NCBI RefSeq assembly: GCF_037975245.1 | Contig: NC_092572.1 | Span: 1,773,501 to 1,837,500, forward strand | Origin: Apostichopus japonicus | Taxonomy: Eukaryota; Echinodermata; Holothuroidea; Aspidochirotida; Stichopodidae | DNA length: 64,000 bases | Direction: 5' to 3' | Shown here: one piece after another, positions 2,346 through 53,722 of the stretch | Position numbering within the stretch: position 1 is the first letter of the stretch | How the letters are laid out: each line of letters opens with the position of its first letter | Translations under genes and position numbers: made by a program | Notes under the pieces: model-generated | The model's input: only the letters and a program-made list of their open reading frames with translations | What the model was told of the DNA's origin: nothing | Databases searched by the model: none

Positions 2346-5300
2346 TCAAGCTGGGCAACGACTTAAAAAGTCCGCTCCATAGTTCTCTGAACCTTTGATT
2401 GCCTTAATTACAAATCTGAATGGCTGAATACATAAGGCCCATCTAAGCACTCTGCTGTTCTTTATCTTGGCCTTATTTATGTACACCAACGGATGGTGGT
2501 CCGTTTCCAACAAAAATTCAACCCCGTACAAGTAAATCTGAAACTTTTCCATGGCCCAAACAACAGCTAGACATTCTTTCTCAATGGTAGCATATTTAAC
2601 TTCTCGAGGCTGCAACTTTCTACTGGCGAAACATATTGGGTACTTTACGCCATCCTCTTCCTGCATGAGTACTGACCCAACCCCTACATCCGAAGCGTCA
2701 CATCTAAGAATGAATGGTTTCGACATGTCGGGTAGGTGCAAGATTGGTGCGGAAGCTAGCCTAGATTTTAACGTTTCAAATGCAGCACCCTGAGAAGAAC
2801 CCCATTTAACCCTGTTTGGATTAGAACCTCGCGTGAGATCAGTTAAGGGAGCTGAAATGGCCGCGAAGTTTGGTATAAACCGACTATAATAGCCAGCAAG
2901 TCCCATAAATGATCTCACTTCCTTTTTTGTAGTAGGTATCGACGCATTTAAAACCTTCTGCACCTTGTCGGGCTGAGGGCTCAAGATCCCTTCCCCAACC
3001 ACGTAACCTAAAAATTCTAACGATGAGTAACCAACAAAACACTTTGTTGGTCGCGCTGTAAGTCCGGCGCTCCTAAGACGCTTAAGCACTGTTGCCATCA
3101 GTTCTACATGACTATCCCATTCTGTGGAGAACATTAATATATCGTCGATGTAGTGAACAGTGATTTGCAACCCATCAAGCAGCCTGCGCATCATACGCGT
3201 AAATACGGCAGAAGCGTTGACAACACCAAAAGGCATGACTTTGAATTGATACATTCCTTGATGCGTTACAAAAGCTAGTTTCTTTCTCTCTTCTACGGCA
3301 ACCGGTATCTGCCAATAACCTTTTGATAGATCTATTTTTGTAAAATACTTCCCCTTAGATACCTTTGCCATCAAGTCCTCAACACTGGGAATAGGTTCGG
3401 GGTCAAATAAAGCAATCTTGTTAAGCTTTCTAAAGTCAACACAAAACCTGTTTGACCCGTCTTTTTTGCGAACCAACACTATTGGCGATGCGTACGGCGA
3501 ATAAGACCTTTCAATAACATCAGTTTCTAACATGTTCTCTATTTCTTCCTCTATAACCTTTTGCGTACTCAATGGAATTGGATACGGTCCACTTCTTACA
3601 ACTTCATCCGTTACCAATGGCAACGTATACTCAAGTAAATTCGTACGACCAGGAGTATCGGTTAACACATCTCTGAATTCAGACAATACAAGCGAAACCT
3701 CTTTTGCTTTGTTTTTCACATTGACATCTCTAAAACATTCTTTTGATTTAGAAGGAGGTAGTACTATGATAAACTTATCTGTTTCAGAATTATTTTCCTT
3801 AATGATCGCGCAAGATCCACTCTGCTCCTCTAACACACTCCCAGCTGACGTAATATCAACATTTCGATCGGATGTTCGAACAAAATATTTCTTTAGTAAG
3901 TTTGCGTGAAATGTTTTGAGTTTTTCCTCTTTGTTGACTCTATAGTCGTACTTGCCTACCTTTCCTACAATATGATAAGGCCCTTTCCACTGCATAGTTA
4001 GCTTGTTACTGTCTGTAGGTAACAAAATTAGAACTTGGTCATCGACATTGAATTTTCGATCACGTGCCCTTGCGTCATAACATTTCTTGTATCTACTAGA
4101 CGACTTGGCCAGCTCGTTTTGAGCCAAATAACATGTTTCCTCAAGTCTTTCTTTCAAATCGATCACATACTGATAGGTAGTTTTAACTTCTTCCTCCTCT
4201 ATTTCACCCGTCCACAAATCTTTCAAGATACCCATTGGCCCTCGGACCGTCCTCCCATACAACAATTCAAATGGGGAGAATCCTAGTGATTCTTGGGGGA
4301 CCTCACGATAAGCAAACAGCAGGGCGGGTAAAAATCGATCCCAATCACGTGGTCTTTCAGCAGACATACGCCTTAACATTTTTTTTAACGTACCGTTAAA
4401 TTTCTCAACCAAGCCGTTGCAAATTGGATGGTAAGGTGTAGTGGTTAGTTGTTTGATCTGCAATACCCGACTAATCTCCCTCATGAGATCGGAAGTAAAC
4501 TGACTTCCCATGTCGGTCAGAATTTCTTTGGGAAACCCCACCCTAGTAAATATCTCGAGTAGAGCTTCGGCTACACGCTCTGTTTCAATAATAGGCAGAG
4601 CAACTGCCTCTGGGAACCTCGTAGCATAATCTACTAAAGTCAATACATATCTATTCCCTCGATCTGACACTGGAGCTAACGGACCCACTAAATCGATAGC
4701 TACCCTATGAAACGGAGTGTCTATGAGTGGCATGCGTCCTAACGGTACTTTGGAGATTCTACCCTTCGAAACCGTTCTCTGGCATATATCACAAGACATA
4801 CAAAACATTTTCACATCGTTTTGGATACCAGGCCAATAGAAATTGTTCGTGATCCTATCGTATGTTTTTTTGACACCTAGGTGACCCGACAATGGCGCTT
4901 CGTGGCCCACACTTAACACTTTGTTTCGAAACCTTTCAGGCATCACTACCTGACGAAATTCTTTGTCACCTCTTGACTTCGCCGACTTGAATTTACGAAA
5001 CAATACATTATTTACTATCGTAAACCTAACCTCATTTCCACCTCTCGTCATTTTGACATTACCAGTCTTTGCTATGTCATACAATTTGGCAAAACTAGGC
5101 TCGTCTTTCTGAGCCTGTATCAATTCTTCTCTACTAATATCTACCTCCTCCGACTTTGCGGTTCTCAAAGGCTTGAGAGGTTTCTCCCTTTTTTGCTTTT
5201 GAGCTCGGGTCTCGACAGCACCACTTACAGAACCTAAATCCTTACCACTACTTTCAAATTGAGGGGGATTCCAATTCGGGTCTGGGTCCTGTGGTTCTCT

Positions 5301-6767
5301 GACACCATTGATATTTCCCAGAATTAAATCATATAACGGACTTTCCATTACTAGAGCCTCCACTTCTCCCTGATAAAATGGCGTATCAACAGCAATAACA
5401 GCAACTGATACGTCACGTACTGTACCATCAAGAAGAACACAACGTTTGTTTACACCTGTGAACTTTGAAGGGTCAACGAATTTCCTCCGAGCTACAACCG
5501 TAGTGCAACCTGTGTCCCTTAATACCGACACCTTTGACAACCCAATGTAACCATCCCTCACAGGCATACATCCATAATTGGTTTCTACAGCACTTACTTT
5601 AGGCAGACCGTGTTTAACATTGTCCTCCCCTACCAGTAATTCGGAGTCGGTTTGACAAGCGGCCGCCCTTTCTTTTACCTCTGCCTTAGAGTCACTACCC
5701 TCTGACAAACCTGCACCCCTGTCATAGCTACGACCTTTTGAGGCATATGTACCCCTATGTTTCTTACAATCGCGAGAAACATGACCCACGTCGCTACAAT
5801 TATAACATTTCTTGTTCTTATTCCACTCCTTGCCTTTATCTACCTGCTTTTCAAACTGTAAATTGTGGCTAGATTCTTGTTTTGAAGAACATTTCTTGTC
5901 CCACTGTTTACCCCTGGCGTCGACATAACGATCAGCCCTATAAGCCATGTCTTTGACACTAACAGGTTGTCCCTCTTTAACAAATATACGAAGATCCTTA
6001 GGACACATACTATAAAATTGATCTTTAACCATGAAGTCTAGCATACCTTCATAAGACTTAGTCGTATTGCTAAGGTCTACCCAGCGTTCCAAGTAACCTG
6101 TGAGTCTATCCACTAATTGGATGTAGTTTTCCCCTCCTTCAAGCTTTGAACCTCTAAACTTTCTACGAAAACCATCGGCATTCATATCATAAATACAAAG
6201 TAACGCTTTCTTAAGGATGTCATAATTCTTAGAATCATCATCGGACAATCTTGAATAAACATTAAGGGCTTTGCCCGTTAACAAGGCACTCAACAATATG
6301 GCCCATTCTGATCTGACTTTTCCTGCCGCGGTTGAGTACCTCTCGAACCTTTTTAGGTATGAGTCAATATCGTCTGTTTTTTCGTTAAAACATGGTATCT
6401 CAGGCTTTTTGAACGGTGACATTTGCGGCGAGCCTACATCCGGTTTTCCTGAGGACCGCGTCTTCACGTTTTCCTCTGCAATTCTTAGTTCAATTTCTTT
6501 CAACTCCTTTTGATGTTCTCGCTCCCTCTGTCTTTCGTCCCTTGTCTGTGCATCCAGATTCTTTGCAAAATCAATTAGCGCCTGCCCTTTGAGGTCAAGG
6601 CTTTCTCCCATTTCGATATAATTTTGAAACTCTGCCATTTTAGGCAATTCTGTAGTGACGAGGGACACGAAATTAACACATAAGATCAATGAAATGCGAA
6701 CAATAATAATCACCTCCTTCATCCCAGAACGAGCTCCCATAACAATTAGAGTAAAACTTGCTAACAC
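2346..6767 (-). CDS. Gag-Pol polyprotein of Gmr1-type Ty3/gypsy element, order Gag-PR-IN-RT-RH
   Basis: One uninterrupted 1473-residue frame. Domains in order: Gag, probably starting at Met44 (base 6638, MAEFQNY) because residues 1-43 are an unrelated hydrophobic extension; CCHC zinc knuckle 321-334 (CYNCSDVGHVSRDC); aspartic protease with D418-T-G; integrase zinc finger H622, H629, C659, C662; integrase core D692, D752, E788 (D-D-35-E spacing); reverse transcriptase with YIDD at 1206-1209; RNase H with D1357, E1396 or E1398 and D1423. Integrase lies upstream of reverse transcriptase, the reverse of normal Ty3/gypsy. This order defines the Gmr1 group described from deuterostomes. All catalytic residues I can check are present and there is no frameshift, so the copy may be competent or recently so. 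Confidence 0.95.
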   Translation of the reverse strand: MLASFTLIVMGARSGMKEVIIIVRISLILCVNFVSLVTTELPKMAEFQNYIEMGESLDLKGQALIDFAKNLDAQTRDERQREREHQKELKEIELRIAEENVKTRSSGKPDVGSPQMSPFKKPEIPCFNEKTDDIDSYLKRFERYSTAAGKVRSEWAILLSALLTGKALNVYSRLSDDDSKNYDILKKALLCIYDMNADGFRRKFRGSKLEGGENYIQLVDRLTGYLERWVDLSNTTKSYEGMLDFMVKDQFYSMCPKDLRIFVKEGQPVSVKDMAYRADRYVDARGKQWDKKCSSKQESSHNLQFEKQVDKGKEWNKNKKCYNCSDVGHVSRDCKKHRGTYASKGRSYDRGAGLSEGSDSKAEVKERAAACQTDSELLVGEDNVKHGLPKVSAVETNYGCMPVRDGYIGLSKVSVLRDTGCTTVVARRKFVDPSKFTGVNKRCVLLDGTVRDVSVAVIAVDTPFYQGEVEALVMESPLYDLILGNINGVREPQDPDPNWNPPQFESSGKDLGSVSGAVETRAQKQKREKPLKPLRTAKSEEVDISREELIQAQKDEPSFAKLYDIAKTGNVKMTRGGNEVRFTIVNNVLFRKFKSAKSRGDKEFRQVVMPERFRNKVLSVGHEAPLSGHLGVKKTYDRITNNFYWPGIQNDVKMFCMSCDICQRTVSKGRISKVPLGRMPLIDTPFHRVAIDLVGPLAPVSDRGNRYVLTLVDYATRFPEAVALPIIETERVAEALLEIFTRVGFPKEILTDMGSQFTSDLMREISRVLQIKQLTTTPYHPICNGLVEKFNGTLKKMLRRMSAERPRDWDRFLPALLFAYREVPQESLGFSPFELLYGRTVRGPMGILKDLWTGEIEEEEVKTTYQYVIDLKERLEETCYLAQNELAKSSSRYKKCYDARARDRKFNVDDQVLILLPTDSNKLTMQWKGPYHIVGKVGKYDYRVNKEEKLKTFHANLLKKYFVRTSDRNVDITSAGSVLEEQSGSCAIIKENNSETDKFIIVLPPSKSKECFRDVNVKNKAKEVSLVLSEFRDVLTDTPGRTNLLEYTLPLVTDEVVRSGPYPIPLSTQKVIEEEIENMLETDVIERSYSPYASPIVLVRKKDGSNRFCVDFRKLNKIALFDPEPIPSVEDLMAKVSKGKYFTKIDLSKGYWQIPVAVEERKKLAFVTHQGMYQFKVMPFGVVNASAVFTRMMRRLLDGLQITVHYIDDILMFSTEWDSHVELMATVLKRLRSAGLTARPTKCFVGYSSLEFLGYVVGEGILSPQPDKVQKVLNASIPTTKKEVRSFMGLAGYYSRFIPNFAAISAPLTDLTRGSNPNRVKWGSSQGAAFETLKSRLASAPILHLPDMSKPFILRCDASDVGVGSVLMQEEDGVKYPICFASRKLQPREVKYATIEKECLAVVWAMEKFQIYLYGVEFLLETDHHPLVYINKAKIKNSRVLRWALCIQPFRFVIKAIKGSENYGADFLSRCPA

Positions 6768-6924
6768 CCAGTTCGTTCGTCGCTTTCTATTGTTGACGAG
6801 AATGACGCAGACGTCGGACGGCTCGTTTGGCTCTGTCGAGGGCGCTCGCGGCCCGCAAAACGTCAGACGAAGTTTCTGATGCTTAGTGCTATTGGTGGCC
6901 CGACGATAAACGACCAGACGATTA

Positions 6925-6944
6925 GATTCCCGGACAGGCCCCCA
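6925..6944 (-). other. Primer-binding site of Gmr1-type element
   Basis: Two bases inside the 5' LTR edge. The plus strand reads gattcccggacaggccccca, which looks like the 3' end of a tRNA (T-loop/T-stem GATTCCCGG, acceptor stem, CCA). Its minus-strand complement starts TGG, as a PBS should. The tRNA species is not identified. Confidence 0.75.
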
Positions 6945-6946
6945 AA

Positions 6947-7461
6947 TGTCACGGGTAAGGTAAAACTATTTGCTGGACAGCGTAAATACTCGAGGCGGAT
7001 GGCGTGTGTCTTTTCTATGAGTTTTATTTACTCCTCGTAACCAGGGGCAAAAACCCTGAAACACAACGTAAAATGTACGCATTGTATAAACAAACATTTC
7101 ACACAAATTAGACGTTACATCGGCAATATGAAACATATCAAACATGCATTGATCTCGCTGTATGATCCCATGATTTTACACCTTATTAACACTTATCACC
7201 TATTTACAATATGCCCTCCCTATACAGACATTCGATACTAACAAACTTCTCAAAAATATATTTTATATGTGCTTTCCAATCTCTAACATATTTCGGCCTC
7301 GCTACACTCAAATAAGAAACAAGAATACGACTAACTAGTTGCGTTCCCTCTACTGCATAGTAAGGTTTGACTTAGTATACATAAGAAAATGAGACACTTA
7401 CGGAATTCGGTCAGTTTCCGGCTTTTTACACGTATCGGTACGTCCTTTACGATATATTACA

Positions 7462-38225: not shown

Positions 38226-38353
38226 CTAGGATGGAGGATAGGCAGTAAAGTCGTACTGCTGACTTTGTTGTGTTGTTTCCCATTGACCAGTGTCGAAGTT
38301 ATAAGTTACATTGTTGTTGAATTTCATCCAGGAACCCCCTGATGAACGATCAA
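38226..38353 (-). CDS. Terminal exon of the Ig-NACHT gene
   Basis: Acceptor tctccacag, then DRSSGGSWMKFNNNVTYNF and a Tyr/Gln-rich tail QQYDFTAYPPS before TAG at 38226-38228. The phase (1) fits exon 42218-42306 across a 3.9 kb intron that holds the LINE. The link is inferred from phase and position only. Confidence 0.5.
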
Positions 38354-38394
38354 CTGTGGAGACGAAACAGGATACAAAACGGATATGATTAGAG

Positions 38395-41300
38395 AGAAAT
38401 ACTGACATTGACATTGACATCATTTATTTCCATCATCAATTAAATACAAGAATGTTGAGCGTAACATTTATAAGCTCACAGAAAGCACAATACAATATAG
38501 AGACAACATTCGTTGAATGGATATATATGTAGATAAATCAAGATTTAATGGAAATGGAGAAAAAAGAAGCAAAATGCTTATAAATACTTTCCCCAGTTAT
38601 GTATCTGTCTATACATGTAATACAGTGAAGGTAAATTGGTGATGGCAATAATAAATGGAAGAAAAAAAAATACAGAAAGCACTGAAAATAAAAACACACG
38701 TGTTGTGGCATATACGAGAAGGTGTATAACTTAATTTAAACAATCATCATCATAGGCTGTCAGGAAATTGTTTTTAAGTCATTTTTAAACAAACTTAATG
38801 TAACAGCAGATTTAATGGTTTTATCCAATGAATTCCAAATTTTAACACCAGAGAAGGAAATAGAAAATTGTTTTTTCTTTGTTCTTGCATAATTCAAATA
38901 AAAATTGCCATAAAATCTCTTATTGTTACTAAGTACAAAATAGCTTTGCAAAGTTGATGGCAGACTATTATGAAAAGCTTTATACATGAAAATACTTGTA
39001 TTGAAATCAATAAGATCAAAAAACTTAAGTGCTCGTAACTTATGAAATAGTGGGGAAGTATGGTCCAAAAATTTAGCCTTACAGACAATACGAATAACCT
39101 TTTTCTGTTTTAAAAATATTGGATGTACATTGGTTTTGTAAGTGTTACCCCATGCTTCCACACAATAATTCAAATAAGGAAGGAAAATAGCACAATATAA
39201 AGAATACAGAGCATGTGTATTAAGAACATGGCTAGCTTTGTAAATAGCACCAATACTTTTGGAAAGTTTACTTGAAATATGGGAAATGTGATCTTTCCAG
39301 GAGAGTTTACAGTCAAGAAACACACCAAGAAACTTGACACAGTTAACTTGGTCAATTTCTAAACCATCTATAGTAATGTTGACATTGTTACATGTGGAAT
39401 GGTTGGAGAAAATCATATAATTTGTTTTGTTTACATTCAATGATAATTTATTAAGGGCAAACCATCTACTTAACTTCTGAAGTTCGGTACTGACCAAATT
39501 ACATAATGTATTGATGTCACTATGACTGCAGAATATGTTTGTGTCATCTGCAAAAAAATGAAATTCAATATATTGGTAACATTGCAAATATCATTCAAGT
39601 ACAAAATGAAAAGTTTAGGTCCAAGGATTGATCCTTGCGGAACCCCACACAATACATTACATAAACCAGACTTTTTATTGTTAACTTGAACATACTGATT
39701 CCGGTTTGATAAATAGCTTGAGAGCCAATTTTGGACAATACCACGACAACCATAATGATTTAATTTTTTAAGTAAGATATTATGATCAATAGTATCGAAT
39801 GTTTTTTTCAAATCTATAAATACCCCAACGGCTGCTTCCTTATGGTCTAAAGAAGATGTAATTTTTTCAACAAGCTCAAGTATTGCCATATTAGCGGACC
39901 TACCGGACCTGAAACCGTATTGGTTCTCAGAGAGAATATTATGCTTAGCAATGAAATCATCCAACCTTACATCAAACAACTTTTCAAGAATTTTTGAAAA
40001 CTGTGGAAGCAGTGAAATAGGTCTATAATTATTGAAAGTATTCTTATCTCCAGTTTTATAGATTGGAATGACTTTAGCAACTTTCATTGCATCTGGAAAG
40101 ATACCACTGGCAAAAGACCTATTGCAAATAAATGTTAAAGGTTCAACTACATATAATATAATATCTTTTATAACTAACATACTCATGTTATTACAATCAA
40201 CAGATGTCTTACTAGAAAAATTACTCACAACTTGTAGCACTTCTGAAGTGTCTGTATCTGCTAAGCACATAGAATTCATATTGTGATTTTTAAGATAATC
40301 AAAAATAGACCCATCTTTATGAGGGATTTGAGCTGCTAGGTTTGGTCCTATACTTGTAAAGAAATGATTGAACCTATCAGCAATGGCCTCACCTGTTACC
40401 TCTTTATCATTTTCAACAAAAGTATCAGGATAGCTACTTTTATTTCCACAATTTCTGTTAATTATACTGTTCAACACTTTCCATGTCTCTTTCAAATTGT
40501 CACTATGCTTATTTATAAGCTCTGAATAATACTCCCTTTTACAAGATCTTAAGACTGAATTTAACCTATTTTTATAACTTGTGTACCTCAGTTCAGACTC
40601 ACTTGTTCTTTTCTTTAAGAATCTTATATAAAGCACTTTTTTCTTCTTACAAGCATTTTTCAGCCCTTTGGTCATCCATGGCTTGTCCTTAAATTTCCTC
40701 TTGGCTGACACCAACTTGATAGGACAAGTTTCATTGAAACACCTTGTAATAATATCAATAAAATTATTGTATGAAGAATTAACATTTTCCGCAGTGTAAA
40801 CTTGTTCCCATGACTCATTACTAAGCTTGCTATAAAATGCATTCATATTTACATCACTTTGATTTCTTATGTAGATACAACCATTGTCAGGAACTTGACT
40901 TTTTGTATCGTATCCATGACTACAAATTGTAAAAATGGGGAGATGATCACTTACATCACAAACTAATATACCACAATTATGTTCGGCCCCCAAGACATTT
41001 GTGTAAATGTTATCAATTAATGTAGCAGACTGACTGGTGATACCATTTGTGTAAATGTTATCAATTGATGTAGCAGACTGACTGGTGATACGCGTGGGTT
41101 TATCTATCAAAGGAAACATACTTAAACTACACAAGGCATTCAAAAAATCACGTACATGATTACTGTGCTCACAGTTCAACAGATTTAGATTGAAATCTCC
41201 ACACAGATAAACATTACATCTTTTATGTCTATACAGTTTCTCAAGAGTATCACACAATACTTCAACAGATGAATCAGGTTGTCTGTACATACAAGATATC

Positions 41301-41884
41301 AAAACAATCTTTTTGTTTGGCACAGAAACCTTAATTGTTATACACTCAAGTACATTAGTCAATGCAAAACCCATATCAGTCAAAACACTATATTTTAGGG
41401 TATTGCGAACATAAATCGCAACTCCGCCACCTCTTTTGTCTTTTCGATCTATATGGTGAAAATCATATCCAGTGAGTTGAAAAAGAGCAGTATTTGAGAC
41501 ATGACTCAACCAAGTCTCACTGATAGCTATGATATCAAAGTTAAAATGTAAGTTGTTTAAATAATCAACAAGGTAACAGAAATTTGCACCAAGACTTCTA
41601 CAATTAAAATGCACGACGGACAGGCCACAATCATTTGCATCATCTTTAAAGAAGTTGTCAGTATAATAGCTACAGTTAACATTATTGAATGAATTAAATA
41701 GGTTATTATCAGCATCAATATCCTGCTCATAATCAAGAGATTTGTAATCTGTATAGTTAAAAGGTTGGAAATTAAGATCATTCAATTGATTTCCGTGGTT
41801 ACTAATATCATGCATGTCGAAATTTGTGTTAGGTAAAAAGTCTTCAGCAGATAACTCATTGACGGGAAAAATATTATTAGCCAT
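38395..41884 (-). mobile_element. CR1/jockey-like non-LTR retrotransposon, nearly full length
   Basis: Minus-strand LINE in an intron of the Ig-NACHT gene. The 3' end carries a short tandem tail, TGTCAA-type repeats at about 38396-38420, instead of poly(A), as in CR1/L2-related groups. The coding part runs 41884 to about 38760. A 5' untranslated part may extend to about 42000. No ORF1 is seen. Confidence 0.8.
38760..41884 (-). pseudogene. LINE endonuclease/reverse transcriptase ORF, frameshifted at the catalytic motif
   Basis: Frame 1 (41884-39470) has an apurinic-type endonuclease: FNCRSL near residue 93, SETWL 122-126, GGGVAIYVRN 152-161, GDFNLNLL 229-236, SDHLPIF 312-318. The reverse transcriptase follows with NNYRPISLLPQ 618-628, FIDLKKTFDTIDH 689-701 and GVPQGSILGP 747-756. 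At a run of seven T (plus strand 39551-39558) the frame shifts. The continuation in frame 2 (39587-38760) opens with FADDTNIF, the catalytic motif, and ends in the usual LINE C-terminal region (LGVFLDCKLSW). A 48 bp in-frame tandem duplication at 40994-41089 repeats ITSQSAT-IDNIYTN inside the endonuclease. The element is probably inactive. Confidence 0.9.
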
Positions 41885-42217
41885 AGGTGATTGTTACACA
41901 GCTTAAAATATTGCTACATAAGTTTACACTTGCAAGAAGTATGAAATGACTTACTCTGTCCCTGCACAGTAAAAAAGACTCATTTCTTGCATTTAAAAGA
42001 ATAAATCCACAACAACACAAAAGATACAAAAACAACACAGTTATTTCCATTTTCGTAATGCTCCTAGAACTGCATAAACAATAAGGTCAAGCACAACTAA
42101 TGCATGGAAATGCTCCTTTCATGGTTTAACTTGGTATTTTTATCTCGTAATTGAGTTAGTAATACGTTAAGAGACAACACGTAGTTTGCTTATGCATAAC
42201 ACACGTTCGATACTTAC

Positions 42218-43438
42218 TCTGAATCTTATCATGCAAGCGTGACGTAACTTGTTTCAGCTTTCTGATAGTTTCGCCAGAAAATGTATCCATGGCGCAATCG
42301 TGGAATCTAAAACAAACAGAAATGTTAGAACTGTTGCCATGGTAATGTTGTTGAGACAATGTTAAACATCTAACTTATAATTATCATCCAAAATATTGAT
42401 ACTGTAACACGCAGTTATTATCCGATGTAAATATTGTTGATAGTGCTACTGGCACTGACTAAACTTTAGGAAAGATTTGTAGCTATGTGAAATTTTTAGA
42501 CATTGTAGTAGTAGTTATCCAAAGTGAATAATAAAGGCTTGTCATTACTTACTGAAACTGTACTTTAGGCTTTTTCGCGATCCACTTAACTAAGAGAAGC
42601 ACTGCAGCTTCGTATAGTTCCCTTCCGATTATAACCACTCCCTGAACATTCGGTATTTGTAGATTGATGAGAAAGGATATGTCAACTTCGGTCTCAAAAA
42701 TTATCATGCCACGAGGGTACTGTTTAAAAACCGATAAAAGACATTATAATTGTAAGTGTATAACATATTTTTTCTCATTAGCGGTAATATTAAATAAACG
42801 GTAATATAACTATGAACTCTATGGTCTTTCAAATGACCATAATTTGAAATTTAGAACAAATATTATGCGAGCAGATTTCGCTGAGAAATTATCACGTTAC
42901 CATTATGTATACCATATATACAATTTCAAAGCAATGTAATTAACATCCTCAGGTTCATATTAACAAGAGTTGTAATATTATTCGTTATCAAAATTGCATT
43001 ACAATATAGTTCTTATAATTGACTGGCCAAGCATCTGTATATGTGGTTAACACAAATATGAAAAACCGTCCTCGATAAAATGAGCAAAAACGTATGAAAT
43101 CATTTCCAATTGCTCATAAATAAAACTTTACTCGGTAAAACAAAACTAGGCATTTCTCATGACATGCAAGTTGGCTAAAGCGAGGTAAAGTAAATATTTG
43201 CTCAAATTAAAAAAGAAAAACAAACATTATTATGGTTTTAGCATAAAATATCTGATCAATTAGAGAAAAGGAAATAAGTGAACTATGCAACTATGCAAGT
43301 TTTTATAAATTGTGTCACGTAAGATATTCTTATCTTACTTATTCACATACTTACATTCTTTTTCTTACAGAACGTGACGAAGTCCTTTACATTACGCTCA
43401 TGATACAAGCAGTCTACTTGTTTTAAAGTGATCTTCTC
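42218..43438 (-). CDS. C-terminal repeat exons of the Ig-NACHT gene
   Basis: Exon 43355-43438 (84 bp, phase 0-0) encodes LYHERNVKDFVTFCKKKN, a duplicate of the last 28 codons of the NACHT exon. Exon 42553-42719 encodes PRGMIIFETEVDISF and GVVIIGRELYEAAVLLLVKW. Exon 42218-42306 encodes FHDCAMDTFSGETIRKLKQV. The 28-residue unit size and exon length match leucine-rich repeats of NLR proteins, but the leucine pattern is weak, so I only call them repeat-like. Donors are GTAAGT in all three. Confidence 0.65.
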
Positions 43439-43870
43439 CTATAAAATGTCAAGGCAATGTAAATAACATCCTTAGGTTCATATTAACATGAGTTGAAATG
43501 TTATTCGTTATAAAAATGTCATTACAATACAGTTCGCAGTATTGACTAGCCAAGCATCTGTACATGTGGTTAACACAAATATGTGAAACCGTCCTTGATT
43601 AAAAGAAAAGAGTTGCATGAAATCATTCATTAATTGCTCATAAATAAAACATTACTCGGTAAAAAAAATAAACTTTACTCATGCGTTCAAGTTGGCTAAA
43701 AAAGCGAGGTAAAGTAAATATTCGCTACAATTAAATAAAAAAACTAACATTTATTATGGCTTTAGCATAGAAGATCTGATCAATAAGAGAAAGGAACATA
43801 GTGCACTATACAACTTTGCAAGTATTTGAAGATTTTGTCACGTAAGATATTCACAACTGACTTATTCACA
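42925..43870 (-). repeat. Tandem duplication of exon plus intron inside the Ig-NACHT gene
   Basis: 42925-43400 and 43449-43920 align in the same orientation (both include gccaagcatctgta, gttcatattaaca, attgctcataaataaaac and ttgtcacgtaagatattc). The unit is about 0.52 kb and spans one intron and the 84 bp exon. Confidence 0.85.
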
Positions 43871-43877
43871 TATTTAC

Positions 43878-45556
43878 ATTCTTGTTCTTACATAACATGG
43901 AGAATTCCTTCACATTGCGTTCATGATACGAGCTGTCTAGTCGTTTTAATTTGATCTCCTCCTTTGTTTCCAAAGAGGAAATTATTGTGTCCTTAACTTC
44001 TGTGCTTTGAACTTCGTAAAAGCAATCTATAAAATCATCCCACATATCCGCCTTCTTTAGTCTCAAAAGAACTTTCGTTTTGAAATTTGTATCACATTTT
44101 TTACCGCAAATGTATCTTAACGCATCTAAGAAGTCTTTATTTTGAAGATTTGTTGGGGTAGAAAGTTTGCTGAATTTACTGAAATCATCTAGAATAAACT
44201 GTCCTAAGAAAACTCCTCTTAGAACTGGATAACGAAGACTAACACAATAGTTCTTTGAACTGGAAGCATCATTCGATGAATACTCGTTTGTCTGCAGCAG
44301 ACCTGTTAAAAGAGCTCCTTTAAGATCACCTTCTGGTAGTTCTTTCCATTCGTTGACAGACTGTGGAGCCTTCTTATATAATGCACTAAGCAAAGCCTTC
44401 TCTATTTCTTTCCTCACCTGACAAAATTCGACTTTCTTCACATTTAGCTTTGTCTTGTAATGATCTTCCATACAGTCAATGCAAGATTCAACAATATTTG
44501 ACATACACCAAAGGCCCGCCGGACGCACACCTTCTGTGCTTTTGTCAACGTCCAGATATAGCAATGTCGATAAGAATAAAGGAACGTTGGGAACACGAGC
44601 AAAACCCCAAGACTCAATGAAATTACTGTTTTCCAACATGGGAGCTTTTTCACCTTCAACGGTATCTTGGGCAGAATGTAAACTTTGAGAAAAAAGAGCG
44701 TTCTTTCCTATCACCAGAGTGTCAGCTTTTTCACGATGGATACCTCTACAGCAAAGATGATAGTTGTTAATTCTTTTTGATAATTCTGTTATTTCTTCCT
44801 TTTTAAATTCGCTGAGCTCAATGATCGTAGACTTATAGTTTTTTGAACATATGCCATCAGTCTGGCGCAGTGCAATCCAAACTCTCATTTATTTAGTAGC
44901 TGTTGTTATGGCTTCGCAAATCTCGCTTCCATCTCCATCAAGTAGTTGCATTTCGTTACGGCCCTTTCGAATGGTATTCTCATCAGGTACTTTATTCTTA
45001 GAAATCTCTGTTTGGCGAGGGAATGTTCTATTTAGAAGTTCGCGAACATATGCTGACACATTACCACGCAGGTCGTCTACATACAGTTCGCTAAAGCCAT
45101 CTATCAGAACAATGACAGGCTCATTCAACAAAATAGCAGAGACATCTTTGGTTTTTAAATTGCAATTTGAGGCTAGATCGTCCAATATTAATTCAATGAT
45201 ATTCTTCTGGTAGTTTTTGTAATTCAGATGTACATAAATTAGAACAAACGTTTTCTCTTTTTCCTGAATCCATTGATTTACCATCTGTAGAAAACATGCT
45301 GTTTTCCCATATCCAAGATCTGCTTTCAATATAACAAACTTGTTCTTGAGAAGGTTTTTATTCATCATCAATTTACCGGTAGTTGTCTTTTGTGGATACT
45401 TGTCATTCATCCATTGAACGGAACATTGTCTATCCACGTACAAGGTATCAATATTGAGAGATACAGCTTTTCCGGGGAAAAGATTCAAGTACAGGTGATG
45501 TTTATAGCTCTCACAGAGTAGAGACACGAGATTCTCTAGCTTTTTATCTTTTTCTG
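43878..45556 (-). CDS. NACHT domain exon of the Ig-NACHT gene
   Basis: The acceptor TTTTAG before 45556 joins in phase with the transmembrane exon (KY|TEKDKKLENL). Walker A is KADLGYGKTAC, with the first Gly of GxxGxGKT replaced by Ala. Walker B is VIVLIDGFSEL, compared with the usual LLIDGLDEL. About 40 residues later TAA at 44889-44891 stops the frame; it resumes at once with MRVWIALRQTDG, which fits the NACHT sensor-1 strand, then IIELSEFKKEEITELSKRI. The rest is helical and ends in a 28-residue segment with YHERNVKEFSMLCKN, which is repeated in the next exon. NACHT domains bind and hydrolyse NTP to drive oligomerisation; here that would occur under the membrane. Confidence 0.75.
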
Positions 45557-45558
45557 CT

Positions 45559-47889
45559 AAAAAAAAATGAAAAGTTTGAAAATGTTTAACTCTAGCTTAA
45601 AACAATGATTATCTTATGGAAATATATTACTGCTATAGAATACGCTTTACTACTAGTTTATGATAACATCTAATGCCCTGATCAAATACTGTCGAAAGTT
45701 AGTGATACTTATTATTTAGTGATTTACATTTCGTCGCAGGATAATCGTCTTCAAACACGCTAACGTTTGACGTCGCCTGAAAAAGAATAATTATTTGTTT
45801 AAGCAAAGACTGACAAGTTTTATTCGCATTTCTACCGTTTATGTTACTATAGACCAGAAGAATGTTTATGCAGCAGCGTTGTAGCAAGTAAAAGAATATA
45901 TGTCAGTAACGTGTACGTACGCGTGGTCCTGTTTTTAACAAGCGTTAAATGTTTTAGCAGCCGCTTGGAATATATCAATCAAGCATAACTGGTAGTATCA
46001 TAAATTGCACGAATAATCATATAGTTCTATTCCGGCGCGAGCAAAATATCGCTTCATTTATTACTGAACTTTACTGCTGAAGTGAAGTCATTGTAATGAC
46101 AGCAGGGCTGTCGTAATTGAGACCATTGAGTGTCAGGATGAACCCTCGTTAAAGGAAAGGAGGCAATCTTACAAATGCAGTTTTAACCACAGTAAAATTT
46201 ACAGCATTTTCTGAATGAAGCCGATTGTTGGGATGGGCTGTTATTAAAGTGCTGCATAAGTCAATTTAAGAACAGCCCATCCCTGAATGGGGAAATGGAA
46301 GGATATTGAAAATTTGAACAATTGATATTAAACAAGAAAATAAAGATATATAGTGCAGTTTAAAGGGTAATGTTTATAGAAGTAAACCTAAGTAAAAATT
46401 CATTTAGTTACTCCCAAAAACAATAACAACAAAATTTAGAGCCACTGTGACGGGTGGCCTACTGTATCGTATAGTCTAGCTAATGCAAGCGGCAATGGCT
46501 TCTTTTCTTTAGGAGATGGAACAAGATATTGACTCCTTCATATATGTAGGCTAGAAGGATACATTTAGAGGGAGAACCAGAAATACACAGATGAACAGCT
46601 TTTGTATGGCAAGATGATGAAAGCGCCACCACATAATTTCTGGATCGTTCAGCTAGATTAGTTTGTATCATCAACGAGATTTGTACAGTTTTACAAGAAA
46701 GTGTTGATTGATTCTTAGTTTCAAATACTTTATGAGCTGTACAAATGTCTTATTTTATACCCACAAGTTTTCATAAGAAAATATGAAAAAAGTTATAGAA
46801 TTAAACCACTACTTATTTATTTACTTTTCTATGTTTTAAATGTTTCCATAGATCTTTGCAGAAGACTGGCCATGAAAACTCTTTCAGTTAATTCATTTTG
46901 CTTAAAGTATTCTTTAAATGTGTATTTTGCCTGGACATCAAAATTCAGAACGGTAGAGACACTTGTGCCAGAGAGGAAGTGCCTACTTTATGTTGGGTCA
47001 ACCTCAAAATAACCTATTACATATACTATACTGGTCTCGGACTGGCGGGACTTGATTGCAACTCTTCAACAAAGTGTCAATAAATACTGCGGATTCTGAT
47101 TCAGGTGTATACAGTTTGAACAGACTATTTCAGGATAATTAAGGATTGAGACTTAAGGGTATAGGTAATTACTTGTAGGAAGAGATGATACGTAAACCTG
47201 CACACAACATCTAACACCAAGAGTTATGATTTTGTTTTACTGCACTACATGATTCTATAAGCAGAATATTACACCCTCATACGTCACTATAACCTGTTGA
47301 TATTTATGTAGGACACGTTCTTAAAATAAAACTTGCAATTCGTAACCTTTTAATTCATATGGCTTAGTTCTTCTATGCTTCCTTCAGGGGTCCCTTAGAA
47401 AAGAAAAGTAAAATTTGTTCATTTAAGTTAACACGTAAGTCTTCAATGATATAACAACTGACGATTTGATCAGAGATAAAATCAAAATAGAGGAAAAAGT
47501 TAACTAATGGATGTATTCAAGCTAACTTTGTAATGTCGGGTTATCATGATATTGTTACGAACATAGTAAATTTGTTCTAATTTTACACCAGACATCCAAT
47601 CTATACCGAAGAACACATGAGCAATTAATCTTTAGATTCTGTTCTCATTCATATCGCGGTATTTTTATTTGAAGGTCAACTGAGCATGCAAATTAAAATA
47701 AAAAATAGTAAATTATTTCTTGTTAACATAAATAAAATACAAAGGTCTATGTGAATCAATATATGAATGGTACACACTTCTGAAATGTGGTACACAATTT
47801 ATCCCATCCACGGGAATATATATTAAGGCTGAAGACATTGATATTTAATATTAATAAATTGATTTAATAAAACAAATAAAAAATCTTAC
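45559..47889 (-). other. Intron 4 of the Ig-NACHT gene
   Basis: No further exon is required, because flanking exons join in phase. It contains a perfect 13 bp inverted repeat (GGGATGGGCTGTT at 46230-46242, AACAGCCCATCCC at 46271-46283). Confidence 0.5.
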
Positions 47890-50289
47890 TATATTTCTCT
47901 GTGTTATGTCTCTTCCATAAACAAAAACACACTGGCATCATAGAAACAATAACGACAACGATTATGACCAGCGTAGAAAACGGAAGAATTGGAAAGGGAC
48001 GAGACGTTTCCGAAGCTGATGGAAGTACGGTTGAAGAGTAATTAGCAACAACGTTGTCCGAAGAACATGAATCTAAAGAAAGAGTATACATTGGCTTGAA
48101 ATGTTCGCGTATTCAATAGTTGTTCATACACATTGTAAATGATCATAGTAGCGAAACGAATTACAGCAAACTAAAGCTAGCCGTATTCAACAACGTGCAG
48201 AGTAGTTTCTTTTGAGTATTGTATTTAACTAAATATTATGAATGGTATGTAATTTAAAAAAAAAAAAACCTTTGAACTAAACTTCAAGATGCCACATTTT
48301 ACTATACTCGACTACGGTAGTTACATATTCATCTATTAAATATAATTCATAAAATTTTAAGTATAAGCAAATTCTCTGTTTTTTAGCTTAACATTTTACA
48401 CCACTACTTGGTTAACGACAAACTAAGAATGCCTTGTGTGTTCAAGATTATTTAAAATCATTTTAACAGTCAATAGATGATCAAGACAAACTCACCAGCT
48501 TTTATCTCAATATTACTGTCAGAACGCTGCATAAGATTTACATCTCCTTGAGACAGGCATCTGATCTCTGCAAACCCACCACACGCTGACACTGTGTATT
48601 CGGCAGATATGTATGTGTCCCATGTACCATTAATATAATGTGAAATGGGTTCTTTTGTTGTGAATTGCAGACTGTTGATATTACTTATCTCCCATTGTAG
48701 AGATATTTTAGGACAGGATCCGCTAACTCTACATATTAGCTCACCAGTTTGGTTTACTCGTAGGCCGCAAGTTAAACATGAGCTACAACCACTGATCTTT
48801 GGGCATTCCTGCTGCGGACGAACTGACAAATATAATCAATTATTCAATATATTCGTAATAAGTATCAATTTGATTTAAAACTGTAACGGGAGGTTAACAT
48901 AAACATAAAGTCTGGCTCGGAGTAAAATACATCAATTTTTCAATTGTATATAGTACATTATGACGCAACAGTCATGATAGATACACTGGAAATGTTACGA
49001 TGATCGATAGTTTTTCATCAGCGCATAATGAAGGAAATGTAAAAAAATTAGATGTGTATCAATTTGAGATCTGAATGAATTTTTGTATAAAAAGAAGGGG
49101 AGAAGTCTTTCTTTTCTTCAATAAACAAGTTTTATTAAATTGTATATTACCCCATAATGCTACAATAAACCGATATATATAACTGTATTGATTGATTCCT
49201 CAGTTTTGTGAAAATAGAACTATTTATTGCAACATCTGCTATGAAACCGATACTAGCAACGATTGCCTGATGCTTTAAAAGATTAACGAACTTAAAGGAT
49301 TAACATAAAATGTTGTCAAGAATTAGAACTCCATTTATACTGTGACGGGAATGTCCAGTCATTAAGATTATGCCCATTCACTACTATTTGTATTTGGAAC
49401 AGTACATGTTACCTGTTATTTGTAAGGTGATTTGTTCTTGATGGTAACTTTCTGACGAAAAATAAGTAACAACGGTGTATTTGCCTTCATCTTCTAATTG
49501 CGCGTTCGAAATTAACATTTTGCCTTCTAAATTGATATCAAATCGAATTTCGTCATACAATGTGCCAGATTTTTGGTCATTCGTTAAAACAAGGATTGGT
49601 TTTGTACTGGATGTAGGTCCATTAAACCAAAACACCTCTTATGGCACGTCAGTTGAACTGCACCCAATCGTTGCATTGCTGCCCTTCTCGATTTGGTAAG
49701 TTGATTGGCAAGCCATTTTTACACCTACAGGAAAACGTTTTAAAATCTATTAAAAATGTTTGAAGTTCTGCGAAAAATAAATTAGTGATATTTGATTAAA
49801 TTAAAACCCCTTTGAGCCTTACAACTAGAATGACAACATTCTAACTATTGTTTTCTTCAGAACAGCATATTTAAATAACGTAATATTTCATGCATTGGTA
49901 CTATCAAAATGTTCACCAAGTGACCAAGCTACTGATATCACTAATAAAAACCAGATCACTCTGCTTATTGTTATTAGGGGGCAATATATCATTCTCATTT
50001 ATAAAGACGATGAATAAATATCTCGAGATTTAACCCATGCTAATGTCAAACTTAGTTATTTGTATTGTAAGCAGAACTCTTCTGCATCAGATGAGCAACA
50101 TTTCTTAATGTATTGATGTCACTGACAGATGCTTAATTTAGATTGTTATTCACTGGCAGTGATTAAATACAAACGTCATTATTGATATCATCGAGTACAT
50201 AGGACGTTATACTTACCTATAAAAGTATCAAATGCAATGAGCAGGAGGAACCAAGATTCGTAGGTTGCACTGATACTCTTCATTTTCAT
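47890..50289 (-). CDS. Ectodomain and membrane exons of the Ig-NACHT gene
   Basis: Exon 50217-50289 starts MKMKSISATYESWFLLLIAF, a signal peptide of 24 codons, and ends in phase 1. Ig1 is 49413-49724: the first Cys lies in TIGCSS and the Trp in VFWFNGP, and DEGKYTVV stands where Y-x-C is expected, so the second Cys is absent. A TAA lies in frame at 49639-49641. Ig2 is 48496-48822, Cys-rich (ECPKISGCSSCLTCG, ELICRVSG, ISLQWE, FAEIRCLS). Exon 47890-48072 has a Ser/Thr stalk, then a hydrophobic segment (STLVIIVVVIVSMMPVCFCL), then basic WKRH, a type I transmembrane topology. All four exons use phase 1 introns, typical of Ig receptors. Confidence 0.75.
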
Positions 50290-52815
50290 ATCTAAATGAA
50301 AGAAAAATAAATTTACATAGTAGGTGTTTGAAATAATGACAATATTTGTAATCGCACCAGTCTACTAGGTCAATGTATGTGTACTTGATGATGATGATGA
50401 CGATGACGATGATGATGATGCGCTTTACAATAAACAAAAACTTAAAGATACACAAACAGTTCGGGAAAAAAGTCCAATGAGCATTGAATCGAGTCTTGAA
50501 TAAATGCAAATTAAGTGTGGTCAAGTCACATATGTCAAGTAACTTTTAATGCGCGCAAATGAAAAAGTATGCCCGATGCATTACTGTTATTGAATAATTG
50601 GCCTGTAGAAGTCACAATCGCTATCAATCACTTCATAGTGTTTAAAAATAACTTGACTAGCCTGCATAACAGTATGTTCATTTATATTGTGTGCAGTATT
50701 AGAATACCAACTGAATTTATATTATCCTTCAAGAGAACAGATGTTTTCGCTCACACAAATCAGCAATTAATGTACTTGTTGTATTAAGATGTTATCTTCA
50801 CTTTCTTGTTTACAATGGCTGACGTATACTGTTCATTAGTTAGTGCTAGTTTATGTTTCCAACGGAACTGTAAATCTACAGCTTTTGTGCGTTTTCACTT
50901 TTCTTTGGAACACAATTGAGTAAGATTGGTAAGTGGAGTTACTTTCATTTCATTTCATTTATTTGTTTTTTCTCAATATACGGTACATTGTATGTCATAC
51001 AAACGTTTACAGATATGAAATTCAGTATAAAGAGAAAGGAAGTGATCTAAAAACCTGAAAGGCTTATCGAGTAGAGCCACTCCCTAAAGAAAGAAAATAA
51101 TTAAGTTATCAGTGTTAACGATATAAACAAACTAAGATTTCTAAAAAGTATTATGGATCAGTAATCACTTATGTAAACCTCGCTTAATTGACGTTTAAAG
51201 GAACGTGGTGACTGAGAATCATTTTGTATATGATCATGATGATTAAGTAGATAATTCCAGCAAGTGTTTGCCCGATAACGTATACTCTGTTTACCCAGGT
51301 TACTATGGGGAAAAAGTCTATGTATGTGACCAGCCTGTCTTGTATTATAATCATGGATTTCCTTATTAACAGTGAATAAATTTTTACATGTGGGCGGATT
51401 ATACCCATTAATAGAGCGATAAGCGAATGTAGCAAGATGAACTTTCACAAGGTCCGGTAATTTCAGTAGCTTAAGTGAGGCAAATGATTTACTAGTATGA
51501 TCGTTATAGTCGGCAGAAGATATATGTCGAATAGCCCTTTTTTGAAGTACAAAAAGTTTCCTAATGTTATAAGCAGCCGTGCCAGACCAAACTGTAATGC
51601 AATAAGTATGGTGAGGATAAATTAAAGTAAAATATAAAGAACGAAGAATCTTTTTTGGTCAGCAGTACTTCACGTACTTAACAATGAAAACTCAAGTCTA
51701 CTTTCGTTTGTGACTCAAGACAAGTCGTTTTGGGACTTTCGCTTCGATTCATATCACATGACTTGACCTATACATCGGAGGTCTTAAATTTCCTATTTTG
51801 TATGCATGATGAGTGATTGATCTTTGCTCACTAATAAGAAGGTCGTATCATTTAAGCGCAAACCAGCCATTATTATTTATTTATATAATATGAAAAAATT
51901 CTTCATTCGTCAAGACAAATATGGTACTTCATATGGAGACATGGAGACAAGTGTTATATGACATCATCAATGCACTTTATTTATTACACTTTAGTTTGTA
52001 CAAAAAGAGTAAACAAAAAGTTGTAAACGTCACAGAACGATGCTTAAAGTGTCACGCTGTCTAAAAGTTCCCTGAAAATATTTTAAGAAAATCAAATTAT
52101 TATATCAGGCACTGGTATTATTCTAGGAGACCTTCCGCACAGAGCTATTATTTCTTATAAACGAGTTGGGGAGTTGTTTAGAACAAACCACATTATTTTG
52201 TATTATAAACATGTTCTGTGTGTTCTTTACTGTTGACATTACAAGACGTCATTAATCGAATCATATCGATCATATTAGGTTACATAATTATACCATCATC
52301 TGTGTACTTGTGCTTAATAGTTTTATTTATTATGCCTATACGGTCTGTTTCGTGCAAGATTACGATATGTACTGCGTTTAAGACAGTTTTGTGCGTGTCT
52401 ATCATAATTCCAAGATTTATCAAATTAATAAAAATCTGCCTAAATATGTTTTATCTTGCTATGCAATATAGCTTGGTTAGTTTACATAGTACCCATCGAA
52501 ACCTCACTATACAAACATTTGTGCAAATGTATTAACATCATTTTTAAGCAATTAAGAAATATAACCATGTTGTCTGGGCCATAATTCCATAACACATGTA
52601 GCTACTCTAGGCTATTGGGAGAAGAGGAAATACAACAGGCATAAATTCACTTTAGATTTAGAAGCAATGCAGAAGTATCTGTTGCTAGTTCATTTAACAC
52701 AAAACCGTGATGCCAAATTGGAAGTCCATTAAAGATAACCGTAGAGTCATACTGATTTCACTTTCATAATATAATTCCGCATACAAAACTTATATTGTTT
52801 CTATTATTGTTACAG
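50290..52815. promoter_or_regulatory. Spacer between divergent receptor genes
   Basis: About 2.5 kb separates the first exon of the Ig-NACHT gene (minus) from the first exon found of copy B (plus). Promoters of both genes should lie here or nearby, but no core element can be named with confidence. It holds a GAT/GAC triplet repeat (about 50390-50424) and a LINE fragment (50947-51640). Confidence 0.35.
50947..51640 (-). mobile_element. 5'-truncated LINE fragment (reverse transcriptase C-terminus)
   Basis: On the minus strand a frame runs through QKRAIRHISSADYNDH, LVKVHLATFAYRSING and HDYNTRQAGHIHRLF, typical of the C-terminal end of CR1-like LINE proteins, and stops at 51158. The 3' end has an (ATGAA)-type tail at 50947-50965. 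The 5' end is lost near 51640. Confidence 0.8.
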
Positions 52816-53722
52816 TCAATCGACACTTGCAAGATTGAACGATGATGATGATGACTGCAACGAGCCATCCATATCGACAAAGGACGATGTTTTCGTCAGT
52901 GCAAGTTCTTTCCTTTTTATTACGCTTGTTGTTCTTGCGAAAGGTAATTATTATATGTATAAATTATTATATGTAAAAACCGATATAAGAGTCATGTGAT
53001 TCCTTGTACAATTATTATATATTCTTATTTTTCATGTTGCAGGAGAGTGGCGAAATGACCTTATTTGTAGCAGTAAGGAAAACTCTACAAATAGTAATTT
53101 TGTCGACTGTGAATGTTCACGCAATTCTTCAAATTGTTTAATTTGCAAAGCGTCAAAAACAGATACAGTTTCGTGGTTCAATGACGGGGAAAACAAAATA
53201 TTAGCTAAGGACACGTTTGTGGTATCCCAAAACGAGATCGTCAAGCTTAATATTTGTAGCTCGGTAAATCATTCTATGATGATTACTACGCAATGCAGTG
53301 AAGAAAACCAAGCGACGTTCTCTTGTCGCCGTAAAAATCTGATAGTTACGAAGTTCTTTTTGAAATTACAAGGTAAATAACTCACTTTTGTCTCATTCAT
53401 GGTTTTAGAGGGAATACATGCAATAATTTTAACACGTCATGCGAGTGTTTAATTTGCCTTTTGTGTTTTAAAGTTTAGTATTTAATAACTTCAAATTTAA
53501 TGTACAGATAAATTATTATGTTTACATTTTAACAGTCACTCCAGTTGTCCTTTTGAATGGAGGTAACGTGACAGGTGACAACTCTTTACTGATAATGCCT
53601 AATAAGCATGAAACTATTCAATGCAAAGTTCTAGACGCAGTTTTACCCATTTCAATTACATGGTACGTTAACAACGGAACGAAGACGGAGGTATCCACTG
53701 AAACCTTTAATAACGGGACATA
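52816..53722 (+). pseudogene. Copy B ectodomain exons: leader and Ig domains
   Basis: Exon 52816-52943 has a hydrophobic stretch (SSFLFITLVVLAKG) that looks like a leader and ends in phase 1. The only ATGs are in another frame, so the start is missing or in an unseen exon. Exon 53043-53372 is a Cys-rich Ig domain (CLICKAS, TVSWFND, ATFSCRR) with phase 1 ends. Exon 53536 on starts a second Ig (ETIQCKV, ISITWYVN) but meets TAATAA at 53720 before the second Cys. A 26 bp direct repeat (gatattggttgaaagaaatc...) lies about 99 bp apart at about 53761 and 53860, marking the rearranged downstream part. Confidence 0.6.

Follow-up and report, generated by a model that had tools for sequence, protein, structure and literature searches.

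NLR proteins are usually taught as cytosolic sensors, and the canonical members NLRP3 and NLRC4 are cytosolic proteins with leucine-rich repeats (LRR) and death-fold domains and without immunoglobulin (Ig) domains or a transmembrane (TM) helix. The sea cucumber Apostichopus japonicus has a membrane-bound NACHT receptor, AjNLRC4, reportedly first described by Chen in 2020. Its published architecture (2021; MN607598; PMC8699970) is that of an Ig-TM-NACHT membrane receptor, with an Ig-like domain at residues 31-132, an Ig domain at 251-353, a TM at 483-503, the NACHT domain at 600-757 and a second TM at 776-795; the accessible parts of that paper report neither a CARD nor LRR for it. Here we describe a gene of this layout in a 64,000-nucleotide stretch of contig C12 of the A. 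japonicus genome (C12:1773501-1837500, below called the window), in which exons for a signal peptide, a V-set Ig domain, a second Ig-like domain (Ig2), a TM helix and a NACHT domain follow each other on the minus strand. The gene is a new, disabled member of an already published layout and quite probably belongs, as a paralogue that no longer works, to a large family of AjNLRC4-type surface NACHT receptors; of the identity and the disabled state of this copy, taken together, we are highly confident.

The Ig part of AjNLRC4 is described to bind microbes and polysaccharides and to dimerise after infection; upon infection with Vibrio splendidus the receptor is internalised, and through its inner part it binds beta-actin and drives a phagocytosis that depends on Arp2/3 (PMC8699970). 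The internalised receptor is also described to bind caspase-1 through its Ig domains, not through NACHT, in an inflammasome-like complex, leading to MLKL cleavage and lytic death (PMC11932488). Two further cases can be compared by description only. AjNLR-new of the same species (PIK48001.1, 2026) is a single chain of 1197 aa that combines Ig, TM and NACHT, but its authors place the NACHT domain outside and the Ig domain inside (PMC13133943). For another sea cucumber, Chiridota heheva, NACHT proteins that carry an Ig V-set domain are described in a paper which counts six NLRs with other domains in all (PMC8913654). An earlier note on this DNA, made from the sequence alone, did not recognise the layout as an established family; it was already in print for AjNLRC4 and AjNLR-new, next to the V-set NLRs of C. 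heheva.

Exon structure of the gene

The gene model runs from 50289 to 38226 on the minus strand of the window and is composed of eight exons, in the order signal peptide, V-set, Ig2, TM, NACHT, X1, X2 and X3. Exon 1 (50217..50289) carries the start codon and a hydrophobic leader, which is a signal peptide by inspection only, and has counterparts with 80-84% identity in two related loci, L039 and L040. Exon 2 (49413..49724, 312 bp) encodes the V-set Ig domain and exon 3 (48496..48822) the second Ig-like domain, whose Ig identity is weak by sequence and which matches the AjNLRC4 locus; both have phase 1-1, as has exon 4 (47890..48072) for the stalk and transmembrane helix, with a counterpart in L039 and candidates in the loci L041 and L042. 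The NACHT (STAND) exon is exon 5 (43878..45553, phase 1-0), which ends at a GTAAAT donor. It is followed by X1 (exon 6, 42553..42719, phase 0-2), with matches in L045, L011, L046 and L017, by X2 (exon 7, 42218..42306, phase 2-1) and by X3 (exon 8, 38226..38353), encoding the C-terminal tail and the stop codon.

All seven junctions have AG/GT borders and keep one frame, with phases 1, 1, 1, 1, 0, 2 and 1. The earlier note had placed the ends of the gene correctly, and the phase 1 to phase 1 join of the TM and NACHT exons that it reported is seen in this model as well. Of the nine exons with matching phases that it counted, eight are in phase. The ninth most likely corresponds to 43355..43438 (minus strand), where 84 bp from the 3' end of the NACHT exon are duplicated, with AG and GTAAGT borders. 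The duplication of this 3' end, together with some flank, occupies 43355-43961 on the minus strand; its downstream copy has a GTAAGT donor and its upstream copy has not. Around L039 and L040 no such duplicate was detected in the stretches examined. The TGA that follows the NACHT exon was ruled out as the end of the gene, since a GTAAGT donor is present at this place in four relatives and tail exons lie downstream.

Intact sister gene and close relatives

A sister gene at C12:2032892-2023846 (L039 with L045), 0.2 Mb from the window, repeats the whole eight-exon structure, and its phases are identical. Its open frame encodes 989 residues, or 988 if the acceptor used for the window is chosen. The claim of the earlier note that an Ig ectodomain, a TM helix and a NACHT domain are joined in one chain is backed by the phases of this intact sister, by the oriented recurrence of the arrangement in the genome (see below) and by the published AjNLRC4 (PMC8699970).

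When the genome was searched with the last 340 residues of the NACHT exon, 31 rows were listed, of which 21 lie on C12 (0.77 to 2.14 Mb). Among the seven close copies, including that of the window, one was found intact. L040 has kept the V, TM and NACHT exons and has an Ig2 exon which is out of frame, and in four further close relatives, at C12 0.77-0.93 Mb, the NACHT match is interrupted by stops. With such stops in four of the six closest relatives and a broken Ig2 in one, decay is common in this subfamily.

L041 and L042 have V and Ig2 exons 51-57% identical to those of the window, their V, Ig2 and NACHT exons follow each other in this order and are free of stops, and X1-type exons lie downstream of both. 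Candidate signal-peptide exons (two per locus) and TM exons fitting phase 1-1 were found for both loci by a scan which required phase 1. In the gene models of the window and its relatives the TM and NACHT exons are separated by introns of about 1.4-3.5 kb. Between L039 and L042 dN is 0.35 for the V exon, 0.40 for Ig2 and 0.63 for the NACHT exon, the last diverging fastest between subfamilies.

Lesions in the window copy

Exons 2 and 5 are each interrupted by an in-frame TAA. The first is codon 53, within the V-set exon (49639..49641), and the second is codon 520, which follows Walker B in the NACHT exon (44889..44891); L039 and L040 have a sense codon at both places. The final stop of the eight-exon reading is at codon 985, and no frameshift was found across the eight exons. 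In addition, the donor of the NACHT exon reads GTAAAT in the window copy and GTAAGT in all four relatives compared. Because of the two in-frame stops the full receptor cannot be made from the window copy as assembled; the intact receptor frame assumed in the earlier note, which had missed both, is not open. A small intron excising the stop in the NACHT exon was ruled out, since L039 and L040 read straight through this region in one exon.

Domain content

The V-set domain of the window fragment scores 26.7 bits in Pfam, against a cut-off of 26 (E 6.6e-6), and that of L039 is also over the cut-off (E 6.7e-7). The NACHT domains of L041, L042 and the AjNLRC4 locus are all over the Pfam cut-off, and the window NACHT exon is 47% identical to those of L041 and L042 over its first 158 residues (E 1e-44 and 7e-43). 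By eye it contains what we take to be a P-loop of the [AG]x4GK[ST] form and a DG-x-SE Walker B motif. A family profile built from five NACHT exons, that of AjNLRC4 included, aligns with the NACHT domains of NLRP5, NLRP3 and NLRC4. The TM helix between Ig and NACHT was judged by eye in the window copy and by the mean hydropathy of the best 19 residues in the relatives, where it reaches 3.5 in L039, 3.3 in L041 and 3.0 in L042. For the 988-aa sister protein Pfam lists, at E <= 0.1, neither LRR nor a CARD, PYD or other death-fold domain.

The AjNLRC4 locus

The AjNLRC4 primer qF (22 bases; PMC8699970, Table 1) has a single match in the genome, with 0 mismatches and 0 control hits, which places AjNLRC4 at locus L044 on C16. 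Primers qF and qR fit this locus with 0 mismatches and EX-F and EX-R with 1 mismatch each, and the published domain positions fit its exon order. By eye, the first 13 letters of the AjNLRC4 siRNA agree with the last part of the Ig2 exon, which would suit an siRNA that spans a junction, and a GTAAGT is present near the end of the L044 NACHT stretch.

The two genes share the order V first, Ig2, TM and NACHT, and in a 10-kb search the V, Ig2 and first-half NACHT queries from the window match L044 in this order (E 4e-8, 7e-7 and 4e-4), with identities of 27% for V and 32% for Ig2; the corresponding alignment identities are 27% (V), 36% (Ig2) and 19% (NACHT). AjNLRC4 differs by about 225 extra ectodomain residues between V and Ig2, the second half of which is a Pfam V-set domain, by its 19-36% identity in the shared exons, and in being intact and studied, whereas the window copy is disabled.

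If the published NACHT start at residue 600 is set to residue 71 of the L044 NACHT stretch (L044:6749-8299), where the Pfam match starts, the second TM at 776-795 corresponds to residues 247-266. The most hydrophobic 19 residues of this stretch begin at 246, and their mean hydropathy is 1.7, compared to 3.5 for the TM of L039. This is the position at which, in STAND proteins, a helix follows the sensor region. The published second TM is probably a moderately hydrophobic stretch inside the STAND module and not a membrane span, so that AjNLRC4 would be a single-pass protein.

Genome-wide distribution of the Ig2-NACHT arrangement

The genome (671.6 Mb in 35 contigs) was searched with three Ig2 queries at E up to 0.01, which gave 197 distinct places; all counts given here are among the matches listed, that is the best-scoring candidates. 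In a first set of NACHT matches an Ig2 lies within 10 kb upstream on the same strand in 54 of 106, with none downstream and none on the opposite strand; at 50 kb the numbers are 58 upstream, 2 downstream and 0 opposite. A second set, derived from the search with the last 340 residues, has an Ig2 within 10 kb upstream in 17 of 20 (0 downstream, 0 opposite), and at 20 kb 19 upstream, 1 downstream and 0 opposite. The two sets share no places, and pooled they contain 71 loci out of 126 with an Ig2 within 10 kb upstream, some of these loci having stops in NACHT. The V matches show the same orientation, 80 of 150 having an Ig2 within 3 kb downstream, with none upstream and none on the opposite strand. 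On C12 beyond 25.5 Mb there are 35 NACHT matches without Ig2, and thus many NACHT genes here lack this ectodomain.

Fifteen of the 54 Ig2-bearing NACHT matches are on C7, each with stops in Ig2. When the C7 NACHT loci are scored for an Ig2-like match upstream, stop codons are present in Ig2 at 15 of 16. In L047 and L048, both on C7, the Ig2 stops are at the same two places and NACHT is read in an open frame, which has 512 aa in L048 and is cut by the end of the locus in L047. Judged from these stops, the C7 branch may have lost its ectodomain. V and Ig2 also occur in groups on C9, C11, C15 and C16 7.8-9.4 Mb with no NACHT among the matches listed; these may belong to a sister family of Ig receptors that lack NACHT.

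As far as the text of the sources was accessible, the literature search yielded no published figure for how large the Ig-NACHT family of A. japonicus is, nor a report of the family scale, of the C7 branch with its disabled Ig2 or of the single-pass correction.

Proposed working of the receptor

The intact sister encodes a probable type I membrane receptor: behind the signal peptide come the V-set domain and the second Ig-like one, then a single TM helix and, inside, the NACHT/STAND module with a tail in which neither LRR nor a CARD or other death fold is recognisable. The gene structure and the sequence relationships are observed here, while surface location, ligand binding and signalling are taken from the work on AjNLRC4. 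By this analogy the Ig ectodomain would bind microbes and dimerise, the receptor would be internalised, and its inner NACHT part would couple to actin and Arp2/3 and drive phagocytosis; at a high bacterial dose the Ig part would recruit caspase-1, with lytic death as the outcome. Phagocytic signalling is on these grounds the likeliest role of the intact C12 sisters, and we put the chances that they act as phagocytic receptors like AjNLRC4 at about even.

Alternative explanations

A number of results weigh against placing the window gene in a family of AjNLRC4-type surface receptors, or against its being disabled. The C12 gene models come from genomic sequence. Ig2 gave no significant Ig match by sequence in Pfam, in PDB (best E 0.81) or in profile comparison, where its alignment with the V-set had 0.2% probability; of the two Ig domains proposed in the earlier note the first is a V-set domain and the second is thus without a significant Ig match. 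The first half of the window NACHT exon, before the stop, scores 22.1 bits, below the Pfam cut-off of 26.7, and NACHT is not listed by Pfam for the full L039 protein at E up to 0.1. The faster divergence of the NACHT exon compared to V and Ig2 argues against a fast-changing outer sensor combined with a conserved inner engine. With up to 3 mismatches allowed, L044 gave no match for the AjNLRC4 primers IN-F and IN-R or for the siRNA, and the signal-peptide, TM and second-half NACHT queries from the window had no meaningful match there. With several queries and primers unmatched and with the low identity in the three shared exons, AjNLRC4 is distant enough that carrying its function over to the C12 genes is a step of inference. 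The 197 Ig2 places compared to 71 NACHT loci with Ig2 mean that many Ig2 exons are without a nearby NACHT match listed, and these may be Ig genes without NACHT. The overall dN/dS of 0.53 between the window copy and L039, much of whose difference may predate the stops, does not look like that of a sequence long free of constraint, and the break in the window copy is therefore probably recent or not fixed. The two stops, finally, could be allelic or assembly faults.

If the stops were polymorphisms or faults of this kind, the locus would encode a functional receptor in other animals. Each stop alters no more than a single codon, and no exon carries a frameshift; however, there are two separate stops as well as an altered donor, and the assembly is described as HiFi-based (PMC10344927), which makes this explanation improbable in our view.

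The window copy might also be active with a shortened product. As the V exon has 312 bp and phase 1-1, its skipping keeps the frame and drops the first stop, which would leave a signal peptide, Ig2, the TM helix and a NACHT stub ending after Walker B, possibly a decoy or a dominant regulator. All other exons keep the frame and dN/dS to L039 is below 1, which would fit such a product, but the NACHT donor is altered, the window copy is modelled from genomic sequence and decay is common among its six closest relatives, so that we regard an active gene with a shortened product as unlikely.

For the intact genes, the earlier note had proposed that clustering of NACHT under the membrane nucleates an inflammasome directly. 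The alignment of the family NACHT profile with NLRP and NLRC4 NACHT domains agrees with this idea, as do the dimerisation of AjNLRC4 after infection (PMC8699970) and its presence in an inflammasome-like complex (PMC11932488). An inflammasome-like triggering thus has a published counterpart, but by another mechanism, since caspase-1 is described there to bind the Ig domains and not NACHT (PMC11932488), and the sister protein lacks any Pfam-listed CARD, PYD or death domain; direct nucleation by NACHT is accordingly unlikely.

A chance agreement in phase between two adjacent genes, one with the Ig-TM exons and the other with the NACHT exon, is very improbable, since, although the gene models come from genomic sequence, kilobase-sized introns separate the TM and NACHT exons and many Ig2 places are without NACHT among the matches listed nearby, the order and orientation are strict in both NACHT sets within 10 kb, the phase 1-1 junction fits all four gene models, and the published AjNLRC4 joins Ig, TM and NACHT in a single chain, with the same order at its locus.

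Other elements in the window

The intron between X2 and X3 contains a LINE-type element on the minus strand (38760..41893) with endonuclease and reverse transcriptase reading frames, which has enlarged it; the same intron of L039 is about 220 bp long, and the LINE was therefore ruled out as a part of the receptor gene. A fragment like the C-terminal part of a LINE reverse transcriptase frame (51158-51658, minus strand) and a long open frame resembling an LTR-type retroelement (2346-6965, minus strand) were recognised by eye. On the plus strand, 52830-53720 gave weak Ig matches; this region is absent from the listed V or Ig2 places and is a possible remnant of a separate Ig-like gene.

Meaning for the NACHT receptors of A. 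japonicus

A NACHT-based surface receptor in a farmed echinoderm is a surprise which had already been published. What is added here is that the layout is that of a large family, with an oriented and repeated exon order and with frequent decay in the branch studied, and not that of one or two odd genes. More tentatively, A. japonicus may have a large membrane-anchored NACHT family, in which NACHT diverges faster than Ig; NACHT proteins as a class would then have moved to the surface and in part moved back. An intact sister gene of this family has now been named and is open to testing.

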